From positions 1 to 24,343 of IMG/VR virus record IMGVR_UViG_3300042122_000006: 24,343 nucleotides of DNA, one strand, 5' to 3'. Of the stretch, positions 15,310-24,204 are shown in pieces. The stretch is from a virus. Both the position numbers and the translations under genes were made by a program. Under the pieces are notes generated by a model. That model saw only the letters and a program-made list of their open reading frames with translations. It was not told the origin of the DNA and searched no databases. Position 1 is the first letter of the stretch; each line of letters begins with the position of its first letter.

Positions 15310-15930
15310 CTACGCCAAGCGCTTGAACGCAAACGACGCGATGCCTTCTCGGCCGAGTTCGGTTTCCGCCCAGTTCACTTCCATGCACTCGAAGCCGTGT
15401 TCGCCGCACCAACGCACGAATCCTTCAAGCGAGAAATAATGGATGTGTTCGCCTGGCTTCATGTGTTTGGACTGCGCCCATTCAGTAGCCGTTTCGCAAA
15501 TAGGGATCGAGACGAACAGCCATTCCTTCACGCGCTCCAGAAGCTTTTCGGGTTCCGGGATGTGCTCCAGGCTATCCCAACAGGTGATCGCTCGAACCTC
15601 TTCGCCGCCGTACGGATCGCGGTAAGCGTAGATGCTCCGCAGCCAGGAGATCGCGTCGGGGCAAACGTCGAAGCCCATGCCCTGCGACTCCTGGACGAAG
15701 CGCCCGCCGCCGATGCCGATGTCCACGACTTCAGCGGGGCTGGTGTATTTCTGCACCAGTTCGACCCGCGCTTTGGTCAGCAGGCCGCCCATTTTCGTGG
15801 CGTCAAGCTTTTGATAGTTGGCGAAATACTCGCCGCCGTAGAGCATGGCCGGGCGGGTATGAAACCCCTGCCCCCTCTCAGGACTCCACAAAAAACAGTC
15901 CGTCAAACCAGTTGGTAAGTTTTGAGTCAT
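15310..15930 (-). CDS. SAM-dependent methyltransferase (class I, Methyltransf_23-like)
   Basis: This 206-residue protein has the SAM-binding glycine loop VVDIGIGGGRFVQ (68-80), an acidic strand end GFDVCPDA (86-93), the motif CWDSLEHIPEPEKLLERV (117-134) and the late segment EHIHYFSLEGFVRWCGEHGF (161-180). D-x-L-E-H-I-P and H-x-x-Y-F-S together are characteristic of the Methyltransf_23-type small-molecule or sugar methyltransferases, not of DNA methylases; no DPPY/NPPY motif is present. Its N-terminal 53 bases overlap the glycosyltransferase, so the two are likely made together and could act on the same glycan. The start is 15930, with agagga about 9 bases upstream. The substrate is unknown. 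Confidence 0.85.
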   Translation of the reverse strand: MTQNLPTGLTDCFLWSPERGQGFHTRPAMLYGGEYFANYQKLDATKMGGLLTKARVELVQKYTSPAEVVDIGIGGGRFVQESQGMGFDVCPDAISWLRSIYAYRDPYGGEEVRAITCWDSLEHIPEPEKLLERVKEWLFVSIPICETATEWAQSKHMKPGEHIHYFSLEGFVRWCGEHGFECMEVNWAETELGREGIASFAFKRLA

Positions 15931-16711
15931 AATCGGAAATCCTCTTGTCGCAGCTGTGGTCACGAAGACGGCAACGGCAGAAATTATGGGGTACAGCGAA
16001 AGTTATCATATCGTTTGGTGGTGAGATTAATTCTGGCGCATTAAAGCCCCCCTGGCCGCCGCACACAACCCAAGCTTTGGTCTTTAATGCCAAGGCTGCC
16101 GGTACTATCCACCCGATACCTCCTATCAAAGCGCTGGCGCCCTCCGCAGCGCCTAGCAGTTCAGTTACGCTAAGTTCCCCTGATAGGTAATTAATATCGG
16201 CTTTCGGCAATTCCCCTACAGCCCACTCCTTCCCATCCTCAAGGTCCGCTACCAAGATCGTGAGATACCCCCTTCGTTTTGCCTCCTCGCACGCGGCGGA
16301 TAGGTAAGAAGGATCGGGGTTTCTAGCGTCTGCTCTCCATTCCGCACGAACGGTAGCTGGCCGGATTAAGACGTAAGGCTTGTCAGTCGGGCGCCAGGGG
16401 AAACTAGGGACTTTAAAGGCTCCGAAAGGTTTTCCGAATCTCCGTCCCATCCCTTGGAGGATTCCTTCCCCGGAATAAGCTATTTGCAGGATTGGGAGGC
16501 CCCGGGGTTGTGTTTCCCAGCTGCTCAGGCGGTCAACATTTTTCTTCTGCGTCCGTAGCCGAGTATCAGGGCGAACGAAATGGATGCCTTCTACAGCGGA
16601 GTAAAGTTGCGGCCATGGAGTGTTGATGTAAATGGGCCGTTCCAATTGGTCTACGAAGGCTAATTGATAAAGATTATCACCTAACCCCGCCATCGAACTA
16701 ACTATTGGCAT
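15878..16711 (-). CDS. glycosyltransferase family 9-like protein
   Basis: This 277-residue protein resembles GT9 (heptosyltransferase-type, GT-B fold) enzymes. It begins MPIVSSMAGLGDNLYQLAFV, with G-L-G-D-N where the family has its first nucleotide-sugar loop region. It continues with YINTPWPQLYSAVEGIHFVR, a central strand PYVLIRPATVRAEWR, and the C-terminal half AEGASALIGGIGWIVPAALA followed by KTKAWVVCGGQGG, equivalent to the donor-binding domain. The end has a Cys cluster FCRCRLRDHSCDK. It is shorter than bacterial heptosyltransferases (about 330-350 residues). Donor and acceptor are unknown; virion proteins, phage DNA or host LPS are all possible. It overlaps the HNH gene by 14 bases and the methyltransferase by 53 bases. 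Confidence 0.75.
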   Translation of the reverse strand: MPIVSSMAGLGDNLYQLAFVDQLERPIYINTPWPQLYSAVEGIHFVRPDTRLRTQKKNVDRLSSWETQPRGLPILQIAYSGEGILQGMGRRFGKPFGAFKVPSFPWRPTDKPYVLIRPATVRAEWRADARNPDPSYLSAACEEAKRRGYLTILVADLEDGKEWAVGELPKADINYLSGELSVTELLGAAEGASALIGGIGWIVPAALALKTKAWVVCGGQGGFNAPELISPPNDMITFAVPHNFCRCRLRDHSCDKRISDYDSKLTNWFDGLFFVES

Positions 16712-17408
16712 TTTGCCCGTCCCATCGATTATTTTTGCGGATGTTATCCAAGGCCCATAGCGGCTGCAAATTCGAGAGCGCCCAGCATTGTTTTATCACG
16801 GAATCCGTATCGACCGTAAAATCGAATGACGACACAGGGCGCACGTGGTCTATGTGCCATTCGCCGTAGTTGTCCCACGTCATGCCTTCAGTGAACTGCG
16901 AAGCTAGATGCGCCTTGAGATCGTCAACTGAGTAGTCTACGAACTGCTGCCAGGTGCGGTTGTTCTTATAACGCTTAACCGCCGCGTATAAGCGATTGCC
17001 CATATTGCAGCGGATCTTGAAATTTACATCTGTTTTTCGTTTCTCTTTCAACTGAACCTTTATCGCTTCCCTACTTCTCTCAAAGTCTCTCCGACGCTCC
17101 GCTTTTAGGACTTCAGGTTCAGTTACCTTCCTGCGCTCCCTGCGGGCCTTCGCCGTAGCTAAATTCTTGAGACGGCCTACTTCCATCTGCTCCCCGAAAA
17201 TTTCCGGATTCGCTAGCTTGAAATCCCGCCTTGCTTTTTGCCTAGCGTTAATCCTCGCTTTATTTTCTAGGGCCCACGCTTTGCTTCTATTCGAGTTACA
17301 GAGCTTGCACTGCGAGCTAAATCCGTAAGAAGTGTATTTGCTTTTTGAAAATTCACTGAGCGCCTTGGAAGTTTGGCACCTGTTGCAGAATCTCGTTTCA
17401 CTTGGCAT
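16698..17408 (-). CDS. HNH homing-type endonuclease
   Basis: This 236-residue protein has a Cys4 zinc ribbon at the N-terminus (C8, C11, C34, C37), a long basic helical linker (residues 40-125) and a C-terminal HNH nuclease: EWHIDHVRPVSSFDF (H185, D187, H188), LSNLQPLWALDN (213-222) and a final R-K-N-N-R. This is a free-standing homing endonuclease of the kind common in phages; it cuts DNA of related phages lacking the gene. The gene looks more AT-rich than its neighbours. It has its own promoter-like sequence, a structured leader and a terminator just upstream, yet its end overlaps the glycosyltransferase by 14 bases. ggag lies about 8 bases before the ATG. Confidence 0.88.
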   Translation of the reverse strand: MPSETRFCNRCQTSKALSEFSKSKYTSYGFSSQCKLCNSNRSKAWALENKARINARQKARRDFKLANPEIFGEQMEVGRLKNLATAKARRERRKVTEPEVLKAERRRDFERSREAIKVQLKEKRKTDVNFKIRCNMGNRLYAAVKRYKNNRTWQQFVDYSVDDLKAHLASQFTEGMTWDNYGEWHIDHVRPVSSFDFTVDTDSVIKQCWALSNLQPLWALDNIRKNNRWDGQNANS

Positions 17409-21782: not shown

Positions 21783-22085
21783 TTACACCTGCACGGCAAT
21801 AAAGGCTTCAACATCGGACTTCTTGATCCGACCGTCCTTACCCGTGCCAATTACTTTAGAAAGATCCACGTTGTTCTCCGTGGCGAATGCAGCGATAGCT
21901 TCTGAGATCAAAGGCTCTTCCGGGGCAGAAGGCGGTGCAGCGGTGAGCATCCGGGTTTTATAGCCCGCTTCGACAGCCGCATCAGCGTAAGTCCCAAGCC
22001 CAAGTTTGCGCAGAGTCTCGGCGTACCGGCGCGCCATCATGGTTTTTCTGCCGCCTCGACTGTAAACGAATTCTACTTTGCTCAT
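21783..22085 (-). CDS. small protein with E3-binding (PSBD)-like domain
   Basis: This 100-residue protein has a C-terminal segment PLISEAIAAFATENNVDLSK followed by VIGTGKDGRIKKSDVEAFIA (about 59-97). It matches the peripheral subunit-binding domain of 2-oxo acid dehydrogenase E2 subunits: a-x-x-x-A-x-e-x-x-V-D-L-s-x-V-x-G-T-G-x-x-G-R-I-x-x-x-D-V. The N-terminal half is basic (FVYSRGGRKTMMARRYAETL). There is no lipoyl domain or enzyme part. Small proteins with PSBD, SAP or LEM-like folds occur beside capsid genes in other phages, with unknown roles (nucleic acid or capsid binding). It has gaggg before the ATG and its own promoter just upstream. Confidence 0.75.
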   Translation of the reverse strand: MSKVEFVYSRGGRKTMMARRYAETLRKLGLGTYADAAVEAGYKTRMLTAAPPSAPEEPLISEAIAAFATENNVDLSKVIGTGKDGRIKKSDVEAFIAVQV

Positions 22086-22181: not shown

Positions 22182-23582
22182 TCAGCTGCCCCAGTTCACA
22201 TTGTCCAGCCATGCGACGGCACTGGCCCGGCGACGCTGCCAGTTAATAAAGCGCTCGGCCAGGAAGGCCGTGCTGTTAGTTTGGAACATCGACACCATGG
22301 TGGTAGGAGTACCGGTGGCGCTGTTGTTGGTTGGGTTGTCCAGCATCTGCAGGGAAGCTTCGCGAGAAGCATCGATGGTCACTTGACCGTCGTCCGCCAA
22401 CCAGATGTCGGAGGCGTTCAGCAGAATCACCATGCCGCCACCGGAGTCTACCGGCAGATAATCCGAAACGATTACCGGAACACCCATGAACGTACCGCCG
22501 TTCATAGTCACGCCTGGGAACTCGGTCTGCCCCAGTGGGTTCAGCATCATGCTCAAGGCGAGCGCGGTGGTCGAATCCATCAGGTACACGGCGTTGCGGG
22601 GAGCGTTACGTGCGGCGATGAAGGGTGCCCACAGTGCAGCGATGTCGGCGCGGATGTCGTCAGCAGTATTGCCGCTGGAAGTGATGCCGGCGATACCGTT
22701 GGTGATCGAAGCAGGCGACACGTTAGCGACCGCTGCTTTAGCCGGGTCCACGAAATCGATATCCGCACGCTCGATTACCGCTGCGGCCAGGCCGTCACGC
22801 ACGAGGCGTTCTGCCGAAGGATCGCTGAAGCGGATCAGTTCGTTGGTCAGAACCGCGATGGTCGCGATTTTGTTCCAGCGCAGTTCGGTGTCGTTGAAGT
22901 CGAACGCGGTCAGAGGCTTCGGTGCGCCTTCACCTACCCAGTACGCCTGGCCGCCGGAGGTCTGACCCGCGATACGGACATTGAACGGAATGCGGTTCAG
23001 CGACGGGATGCCGTTGGTGCCGAACTGGCCGAGGATGGTGCGCGGGCGCAGGTACTCGACGAAATCGCCAGCGAAGTTCTGGTACTGAACCAAGGGGGCC
23101 GCCCAAGTGGTATCGAGGGTGGTGCCGGCTTCGACGGTGGCTTTCATCAAGCCTTGCATTTTCTGGCCGCGGGCTTCCAGCTCCAGGGTTTTTACCATGC
23201 CTTCGTGCTGTGGGTACTGAGACTTCGCGATCTCAACCGCCATTGCTGGGTTGTTCTGCGAAGCCATTTTGCACATCGCATAACGGGCGAACAGAATGCC
23301 GGGTTCCAGCTTCTCGGTGTTTTTGGCAACGAGTGGTGCGCGGTTGGTCTGTTTGGTCACGTCGGTGACTGGAGCGGCGGAGGCTACGTTAGCTTTTTCC
23401 ATCACTTCCAGGCGCTTGATATGTACTTCAGCGGCTTTCAGTTCGTCGGTGATGGTGTCGAACTCTTCCGATTCGGCTTCGTCCAGGGTGCGGCCTTCAG
23501 CGGCTTCCATGAGTTCTTTTTGGCGCGCGGACTTCTGCACCATGGTGTCCTTGAAGGACTTGATTTGTTCTGCGAAATTCAT
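22182..23582 (-). CDS. major capsid protein from internal start (delta domain plus HK97 fold)
   Basis: In the same frame as the fusion, codon 197 is an ATG (23582-23580) preceded by GAGGAGG with 8 bases between, a better ribosome binding site than that of the full-length start. The product is 466 residues: MNFAEQIKSFKDTMVQKSAR, the coiled-coil scaffold domain, then the HK97 capsid fold. This is the size and start expected of an ordinary HK97-like capsid precursor. It would give many capsid subunits for few protease copies, as nested Nu3 does for lambda C. The signal is seen directly; its use is inferred. Confidence 0.75.
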   Translation of the reverse strand: MNFAEQIKSFKDTMVQKSARQKELMEAAEGRTLDEAESEEFDTITDELKAAEVHIKRLEVMEKANVASAAPVTDVTKQTNRAPLVAKNTEKLEPGILFARYAMCKMASQNNPAMAVEIAKSQYPQHEGMVKTLELEARGQKMQGLMKATVEAGTTLDTTWAAPLVQYQNFAGDFVEYLRPRTILGQFGTNGIPSLNRIPFNVRIAGQTSGGQAYWVGEGAPKPLTAFDFNDTELRWNKIATIAVLTNELIRFSDPSAERLVRDGLAAAVIERADIDFVDPAKAAVANVSPASITNGIAGITSSGNTADDIRADIAALWAPFIAARNAPRNAVYLMDSTTALALSMMLNPLGQTEFPGVTMNGGTFMGVPVIVSDYLPVDSGGGMVILLNASDIWLADDGQVTIDASREASLQMLDNPTNNSATGTPTTMVSMFQTNSTAFLAERFINWQRRRASAVAWLDNVNWGS

Positions 23583-24170
23583 GTCTTGGCCCTCCTCGGG
23601 CTTCGGAGTAACGGGTAGTTTTTTCGTAACGGTTGCCGAAGCGCCGGCGGGTTTTTCAAGGCGTACAACAGTGAATTCCTTTTTGCCGGACGCGGCAGGT
23701 GCTCCAATGTCGAACGCTTTGATACTGGTAATCGTCGCCTCCGCGTTTGCGGGAATGGTGACGAGTGACAATTCATAAACTTCAGTTTTCAGGAAGCGAG
23801 TACCCCAACTTCCTTTGATAGGCTCCGAACCCATGTCACGAAAGCCGATCGACACCGCGCGAACCAGGCCGGCTTTAACCGACTGCCATGCCTCTTCGAT
23901 CCGGTTGAACAAGCCTACCGGTTCGGTCACTTCAGCGAAAGTCGCAGTGAACGGGACGCCTTTAGCGGTCGGCTTGCCGAATTCGACCAGGCCGACAGGT
24001 TGCTGGTGGTCATGTTGCCACAGGAGAGGGAGCGGGTTTTTGTATTGGACGCCGAGCGGTTCCACAATGTCGCCCACGCGATCGACGCCAGGGGTTGTCG
24101 CCCATCCGGTAATGGTCCGCGTTTCAGCGTTAACCGCTTTTACGTCAAGAACGCTATAGGCTCTGTTCAT
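22182..24170 (-). CDS. fused HK97-type prohead protease and major capsid protein
   Basis: This 662-residue polyprotein carries an HK97-type prohead protease at residues 1-155: GWATTPGVDRVGDIVEP, LLWQHDHQQPVG (His53), GLVRAVSIGF (Ser107) and YELSLVTIPANAEA, the last around the third triad residue. A linker leads into the capsid half: a coiled-coil delta/scaffold domain (197-265), then the HK97 fold with YWVGEGAPKPLTAFDFNDTE, IAVLTNELIRFSDPSAE and GVPVIVSDYLP. The protease would cut the delta domain away and free itself after shell assembly. ggag lies about 8 bases before the ATG. Separate genes are the common state. An internal start for the capsid part alone is listed below. Confidence 0.95.
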   Translation of the reverse strand: MNRAYSVLDVKAVNAETRTITGWATTPGVDRVGDIVEPLGVQYKNPLPLLWQHDHQQPVGLVEFGKPTAKGVPFTATFAEVTEPVGLFNRIEEAWQSVKAGLVRAVSIGFRDMGSEPIKGSWGTRFLKTEVYELSLVTIPANAEATITSIKAFDIGAPAASGKKEFTVVRLEKPAGASATVTKKLPVTPKPEEGQDMNFAEQIKSFKDTMVQKSARQKELMEAAEGRTLDEAESEEFDTITDELKAAEVHIKRLEVMEKANVASAAPVTDVTKQTNRAPLVAKNTEKLEPGILFARYAMCKMASQNNPAMAVEIAKSQYPQHEGMVKTLELEARGQKMQGLMKATVEAGTTLDTTWAAPLVQYQNFAGDFVEYLRPRTILGQFGTNGIPSLNRIPFNVRIAGQTSGGQAYWVGEGAPKPLTAFDFNDTELRWNKIATIAVLTNELIRFSDPSAERLVRDGLAAAVIERADIDFVDPAKAAVANVSPASITNGIAGITSSGNTADDIRADIAALWAPFIAARNAPRNAVYLMDSTTALALSMMLNPLGQTEFPGVTMNGGTFMGVPVIVSDYLPVDSGGGMVILLNASDIWLADDGQVTIDASREASLQMLDNPTNNSATGTPTTMVSMFQTNSTAFLAERFINWQRRRASAVAWLDNVNWGS
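23591..23597 (-). promoter_or_regulatory. internal ribosome binding site for the capsid product
   Basis: The minus strand reads GAGGAGG, a near-complete match to the anti-Shine-Dalgarno complement, 8 bases before an in-frame ATG at the protease/capsid border. The codons here (Pro-Glu-Glu-Gly-Gln) form a linker, so the site is free to be kept for its RNA role. Confidence 0.75.
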
Positions 24171-24204
24171 GTATACAGCTCCGGTAAATTACGCGCACTG
24201 TAAC

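Follow-up and report, generated by a model that had tools for sequence, protein, structure and literature searches.

A protease-capsid fusion gene with a probable second in-frame start

The window, by which we mean the whole stretch of DNA analyzed, is a viral contig of 24,343 bases, and its last complete minus-strand gene is an open reading frame (ORF) of 662 amino acids at 22182-24170 (-). Within the encoded protein, Pfam PF04586 (Peptidase_S78) matches residues 45 to 148 and PF05065 (Phage_capsid) matches residues 365 to 654, and the ORF meets the criterion that we used for a protease-capsid fusion, namely, an S78 protease and an HK97-fold capsid in one uninterrupted frame. Its relatives include the PAJU2 "prohead protease fused capsid protein." The main start codon is the ATG at 24168-24170 (-), which opens the ORF and is the aligned start of the relatives; it is preceded, with a spacing of 8 nt, by the comparatively weak Shine-Dalgarno (SD) sequence CGGAG at 24179-24183 (-).

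A second potential start lies inside the frame. The CAT at 23580-23582 is an ATG on the minus strand, in frame with the ORF, and encodes residue 197 of 662 (Met197). Upstream of it is the SD sequence GAGGAGGG at 23590-23597 (-), which contains GAGGAGG at 23591-23597, and 8 bases separate the end of this motif from the ATG (minus-strand context of SD and ATG, AAGCCCGAGGAGGGCCAAGACATGAATTTC). The anti-SD duplex energy was -11.8 kcal/mol at the internal ATG; the main start reached only -6.6, and none of the 19 other in-frame ATGs was stronger than -6.4. The nested in-frame product predicted from this start, at 22182-23582 (-), has 466 amino acids and comprises a scaffold-like domain and the capsid.

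We modeled the fusion with AlphaFold2, using 37 sequences from the window and the loci (mean pLDDT, 70.5; pTM, 0.45). In the model, an ordered HK97-type prohead protease domain (residues about 8 to 137; 23760-24149 [-]) is followed by a disordered, variable linker with low column conservation (residues about 138 to 196; 23583-23759 [-]; pLDDT of <50 at residues 140 to 196). Helices at residues 199 to 223 and 231 to 264 then belong to a predicted helical, delta-like scaffold domain (residues 197 to about 345; 23136-23582 [-]), which leads into the HK97-fold capsid domain (residues about 346 to 662; 22185-23135 [-]), matched by Foldseek to the capsids of Bxb1, R4C, and HK97. Together, the model and the Foldseek matches satisfy the criterion of a helical domain followed by a C-terminal domain with the HK97 fold. 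Because the first helix past the linker begins at residue 199, the internal ATG falls at the junction of linker and helical domain. That this helical domain is a scaffold, or delta, domain is inferred from the predicted model and by analogy with HK97, the scaffold of which has been described as two coiled-coil helices and then a third (PMC10275583).

A first-pass annotation of the window, made from the sequence alone, had placed an in-frame ATG with GAGGAGG 8 bases upstream at the exact domain border and had predicted a 662-residue polyprotein and a 466-residue capsid precursor. The ATG, the motif, and the spacing held when the minus-strand sequence was reread, the border position was supported by the model (where the disordered linker ends and the helical domain begins), and both sizes held; production of the two proteins in vivo is inferred, without protein or ribosome-profiling data. 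The further claim that the internal signal is better than that of the main start held for the window and for 29 of 42 representative relatives (see below) and not for all.

The border start is conserved in fusions of the same type

Scans of viral contigs and genomes, together with phage records, yielded 121 fused loci of the window's type (type A), encoding 81 distinct proteins. Every one of the 81 has a start codon at the border (79 ATG and 2 GTG). At three loci (L061, L063, and L166), the ATG lies 2 to 3 codons upstream of the aligned border position, where K or Q stands in place of Met. In contrast to the linker columns, which are otherwise poorly conserved, Met197 reaches 88% conservation.

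SD energies were calculated for 42 type A representatives sharing <80% identity. The anti-SD energy at the internal start averaged -8.5, versus -2.7 at 631 other in-frame ATGs (P = 2e-21), and it was -4 or lower in 42/42 representatives versus 25% of the other in-frame ATGs. It should be kept in mind that these P values assume independent representatives, though the sequences are related; the representatives being kin, the argument rests on the size of the contrast and not on the exact P value. The distance from SD to ATG was SD compatible across the relatives, most often 8 nt, and mean RNA structure was weak immediately downstream of the internal ATG. Some members have weak SD motifs, among them L065, where the spacing is long, and L166.

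The SD sequence is read in differing codon phases (aaaggag in TIRKESR of L003, gggagg in SNVREDK of L050, and aaagga in TISQRNP of L100) and is thus kept as nucleotide sequence. When the codons of type A genes were redrawn synonymously with the amino acids fixed, on average 28% of the draws gave an equally strong SD (Fisher P = 0.003); this test is only moderate because the encoded E-E-G/K-E-G residues already favor SD-like DNA. By the criterion of a lambda C/Nu3-type arrangement that the internal start be conserved beyond the encoded peptide, the family qualifies, the synonymous-codon part moderately so. The first-pass annotation had held that its reading would be refuted by relatives that keep the protein sequence and lose the ribosome binding site or the ATG. 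No such relatives were seen, either for the start codon among the 81 distinct proteins or for the SD-like motif among the 42 representatives. It had also proposed a comparison with synonymous drift, which came out as an SD favored beyond the encoded residues to a moderate degree (mean fraction, 0.28).

Relatives with separate protease and capsid genes

Protease and capsid lie in separate frames at 40 loci. Where the junction is readable, the capsid gene of these split relatives opens at the counterpart of Met197 and in most cases has an SD; by position, the internal start of the fusions thus corresponds to the start of a gene. The two genes overlap by 4 nt in the Moraxella phages Mcat1, Mcat7, and Mcat9, and many others have +9 to about +106 nt between them. 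The split relatives, the Moraxella phages included, thus resemble the window in having a homologous protease and a capsid that begins at the homologous residue with an SD but differ in having two genes.

In a tree of the capsid domain, fused and split states interleave, with 7 changes by parsimony, of which at least 5 are forced by well-supported branches. This is a quick tree with long branches, and the direction of change between the fused and split states was not determined. As a separate observation, an otherwise homologous fusion in Stenotrophomonas phage SOVA965 (L004:2501-4586) is spread over three frames, one for the protease and two for parts of the capsid; this may reflect a sequencing error or a real frameshift.

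Other types of protease-capsid fusion

Two further fusion types were examined in number. Type B (Persinger, Mano, phiHAP-1, VP882, RcCronus, and R4C) has a Phage_capsid domain and is about 25% identical to the window protein, and type C (Stenotrophomonas S1, Bordetella PY223, and RcOceanus) has a Mu-gpT-like capsid and corresponds to NF045541. The window protein scored 41.8 bits against NF045541, for which the cutoff is 525, and does not qualify as a member; the window belongs to another fusion lineage, the PAJU2/JLK-2012 type. For types B and C, we applied a rule that leaves no choice of site, comparing the first in-frame ATG past the protease with later in-frame ATGs. The mean SD energy was -4.95 at the first ATG versus -2.20 at later ATGs in 44 type B genes (P = 5e-13) and -5.55 versus -2.63 in 49 type C genes (P = 4e-12). 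Fused loci far outnumbered split loci in both types (82 versus 2 in type B and 96 versus 1 in type C). There are exceptions to the pattern, such as Synechococcus phage S-CBS1, in which the internal ATG is present and the SD is absent. In the type B phages Persinger and Mano, the main SD is stronger than the internal one. A divergent type B locus, L194, has no ATG early in the linker; it has aggag followed by an in-frame GTG at residue 202 (0-based), possibly a further swap of start codon at the border.

The arrangement of SD and ATG was seen in four fusion types besides the window's, the other two being read by eye in small numbers. The actinophage fusions RRH1, GMA5, Coeur, and Saphira (n = 4) have an ATG with an SD at the same place (e.g., GMA5, aatcaggaggacaccacaATG); a scan of viral contigs based on RRH1 found nothing but RRH1 itself, and this type rests on four phages. 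Fusions with a ClpP-like protease (NF045540; n = 3) likewise have an internal start with an SD (e.g., cacaaggagtaccccaATG). Gifsy-2 also has a protease-capsid fusion protein, which we take to be of the NF045540 kind. Unrelated fusion types share the SD and ATG and not the peptide. A start at the border is conserved in hundreds of related and unrelated protease-capsid fusion genes, with the exceptions given above, and it spans two unrelated protease folds (S78 and ClpP-like), both Phage_capsid and Mu-gpT-like capsids, and both Gram-negative and actinobacterial hosts.

Chance, composition, and search bias

A chance combination of SD and ATG was ruled out by the SD-energy contrasts, the first-ATG rule, codon shuffles, and junction-free loci. 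Composition of an E/K/G-rich linker was rejected by shuffling the linker's own codons (Fisher P = 3e-17 for type A, 2e-7 for type C, and, more weakly, 2e-4 for type B). Part of the loci had been gathered with search patterns that contained the junction peptide, and bias from this source was rejected in turn, as the signal persists with only those loci that came from scans or tblastn without the junction peptide (P = 4e-7 for type A, 1e-10 for type B, and 3e-11 for type C).

In types A, B, and C, mean anti-SD affinity peaks sharply, and solely, just upstream of the internal ATG. In a frame control, pairs of ATG and SD after the protease were commonest in the capsid frame (genes by frame, 17/7/0 in type A, 18/9/0 in type B, and 31/8/1 in type C). 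Because the +1 frame also holds some such pairs, an ATG with an SD in a single gene is unconvincing alone, and it is conservation that carries the case.

A two-start model and its alternatives

The site, its position, and its conservation are established by these comparisons. We consider it likely that the fusion gene has two functional starts, giving the full-length fusion and a protease-free scaffold-capsid precursor; translation in vivo, the ratio of the products, their coassembly, and their processing are inferred. In this model, initiation at 24170 would produce the 662-residue protease-scaffold-capsid polyprotein, and initiation at the internal SD and ATG (23597-23580) would produce the 466-residue precursor. 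Having the scaffold and capsid domains in common, the two products could coassemble: most shell subunits would be of the nested form, and the full-length form, probably in the minority, would bring a built-in protease into the prohead. Once the shell is assembled, this protease would cut away both itself and the scaffold, and mature capsid would be left. The open frame through the linker is kept, and so, therefore, is the fusion; the conserved start at the end of the linker is kept, and so, therefore, is a protease-free product.

Removal of the scaffold during maturation is an inference, consistent with the type B phage R4C, where residue 362 of 629 is the first in the solved shell protein. 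For the same reason, mature virions cannot tell the two precursors apart, and in the literature on R4C and on Vibrio campbellii prophages, we found no data on the N terminus of the precursor. In 13 of the 42 type A representatives, the main SD is at least as strong as the internal SD, and SD strength alone is therefore no proof that the short form is in excess. The proposal of the first-pass annotation that two starts set the stoichiometry of protease and capsid is thus supported by the comparison as an interpretation, and the actual ratio is inferred.

Several other explanations can be offered for the conserved site. The stretch could be a protein motif, for instance, a linker site cleaved by the protease itself, with a structural Met and with SD-like DNA as a by-product of E-E-G/K-E-G codons. 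In its favor, (E/Q/K)-E-G or K-G is encoded before the Met in most type A members, and the synonymous-codon test is only moderate. However, the residues before the Met vary widely (TIRKESR, FHKEKTI, SNVREDK, and TISQRNP) while the SD persists, sometimes in another codon phase, the Met is only ever swapped for a GTG-encoded Val or displaced by another ATG, and unrelated fusion types have the SD and ATG without the peptide; we regard this explanation as very improbable. We think it still less probable that the site is a vestige of once-separate genes that recently lost a stop codon, the old capsid start being now unused or unneeded. Split relatives do have a gene start at the site, and fused and split genes interleave in type A, yet types B and C are nearly all fused and are divergent, and the SD and ATG persist there in a variable linker, where decay would be expected of a site without use.

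A programmed ribosome pause between domains, aiding cotranslational folding and not serving as a start, would suit a site located in a linker between two domains. A pause needs no start codon, yet ATG or GTG is kept at a distance that suits the SD, and in split relatives a gene starts at this site; we regard this explanation as the least probable. A variant of the two-start reading, differing only in the ratio, is that both products are made in comparable amounts and that the full-length form is not a minority. The mixed strengths of main and internal SDs across the family, including Persinger and Mano, speak for it; in the window and its close relatives, however, the main SD is by far the weaker of the two, and we consider this variant unlikely.

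Two functional starts thus remain our preferred reading. A bolder version, toward which we lean with reservations, is that tailed-phage protease-capsid fusions follow a general design rule, with a second in-frame start placed where protease meets scaffold, and that such fusions persist only with a protease-free second product. The border start would recur, on this reading, because a strict 1:1 ratio of protease to capsid is harmful.

Relation to known systems

In phage lambda, the scaffold Nu3, which lacks the protease, is made from an in-frame start within gene C at the protease/scaffold border, and full-length C carries the protease into the prohead. These nested genes were described by Shaw and Murialdo (1980, Nature 283:30, cited in PMC8508860). 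The window gene shares with C/Nu3 a protease gene with an internal in-frame start and SD at the protease/scaffold border. In lambda, however, nothing but scaffold comes from the nested start, and the capsid protein E has a gene of its own, whereas the nested product of the window gene is a scaffold-like domain plus capsid. By analogy, the window gene would work like C/Nu3 without being a strict member of that class, since its nested frame runs through the capsid domain; the likening to C/Nu3 in the first-pass annotation, with the capsid as the nested product, is apt, with the amendment that the product is scaffold plus capsid. HK97 gp4/gp5 are similar in the S78 protease domain and in an HK97-fold capsid that carries a helical scaffold at its N terminus (PMC10275583), but there the protease and capsid are separate genes, in contrast to the single frame with a nested start in the window.

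Protease-capsid fusions are already known and named (NF045541, NF045540, PAJU2, and those of Arthrobacter clusters AM, AU, and AN). They too are single genes, and nearly all of those sampled carry the internal start, mostly with an SD, but they have been described as fusions only. The study of the Arthrobacter clusters (PMC5513430) describes such fusions as unusual, drawing a comparison with HK97 and lambda fusions; the word "internal" is absent from its text. In the open-access literature searched, we found no report of an internal start in protease-capsid fusions, and a mention in the Gifsy-2 or PAJU2 papers is not excluded. The internal start in these genes thus seems to be undescribed, strongly supported by comparison, and unproven at the bench.

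Annotated as one protein, a fusion alone would imply hundreds of protease copies per head. If the conserved second start is real, it would resolve this stoichiometry problem, alter the annotation of the main structural protein in many phages, and make the HK97 (scaffold-capsid) and lambda (nested protease/scaffold) strategies variants of one scheme. Fusions of protease and capsid are common among phages and prophages: DNA like the fusion junction of JLK-2012, an Escherichia phage of the window's type, was found in 1,246 of 5,426 complete Escherichia coli genomes. This junction DNA (L006:2900-3300) occurs at up to 7 places per E. coli genome, annotated simply as phage major capsid protein.

Other genes in the window

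Between the capsid and portal genes, a 100-residue protein is encoded at 21783-22085 (-). It carries near its C terminus an E3_binding domain, the peripheral subunit-binding domain of 2-oxoacid dehydrogenase complexes, found here in a protein of the head operon. Farther along, at 15310-17408 (-), ORFs seemingly unrelated to virion structure lie among the head-tail genes; judged from their translations only, they include an HNH-like protein at 16698-17408 and a methyltransferase-like protein at 15310-15963 (-).
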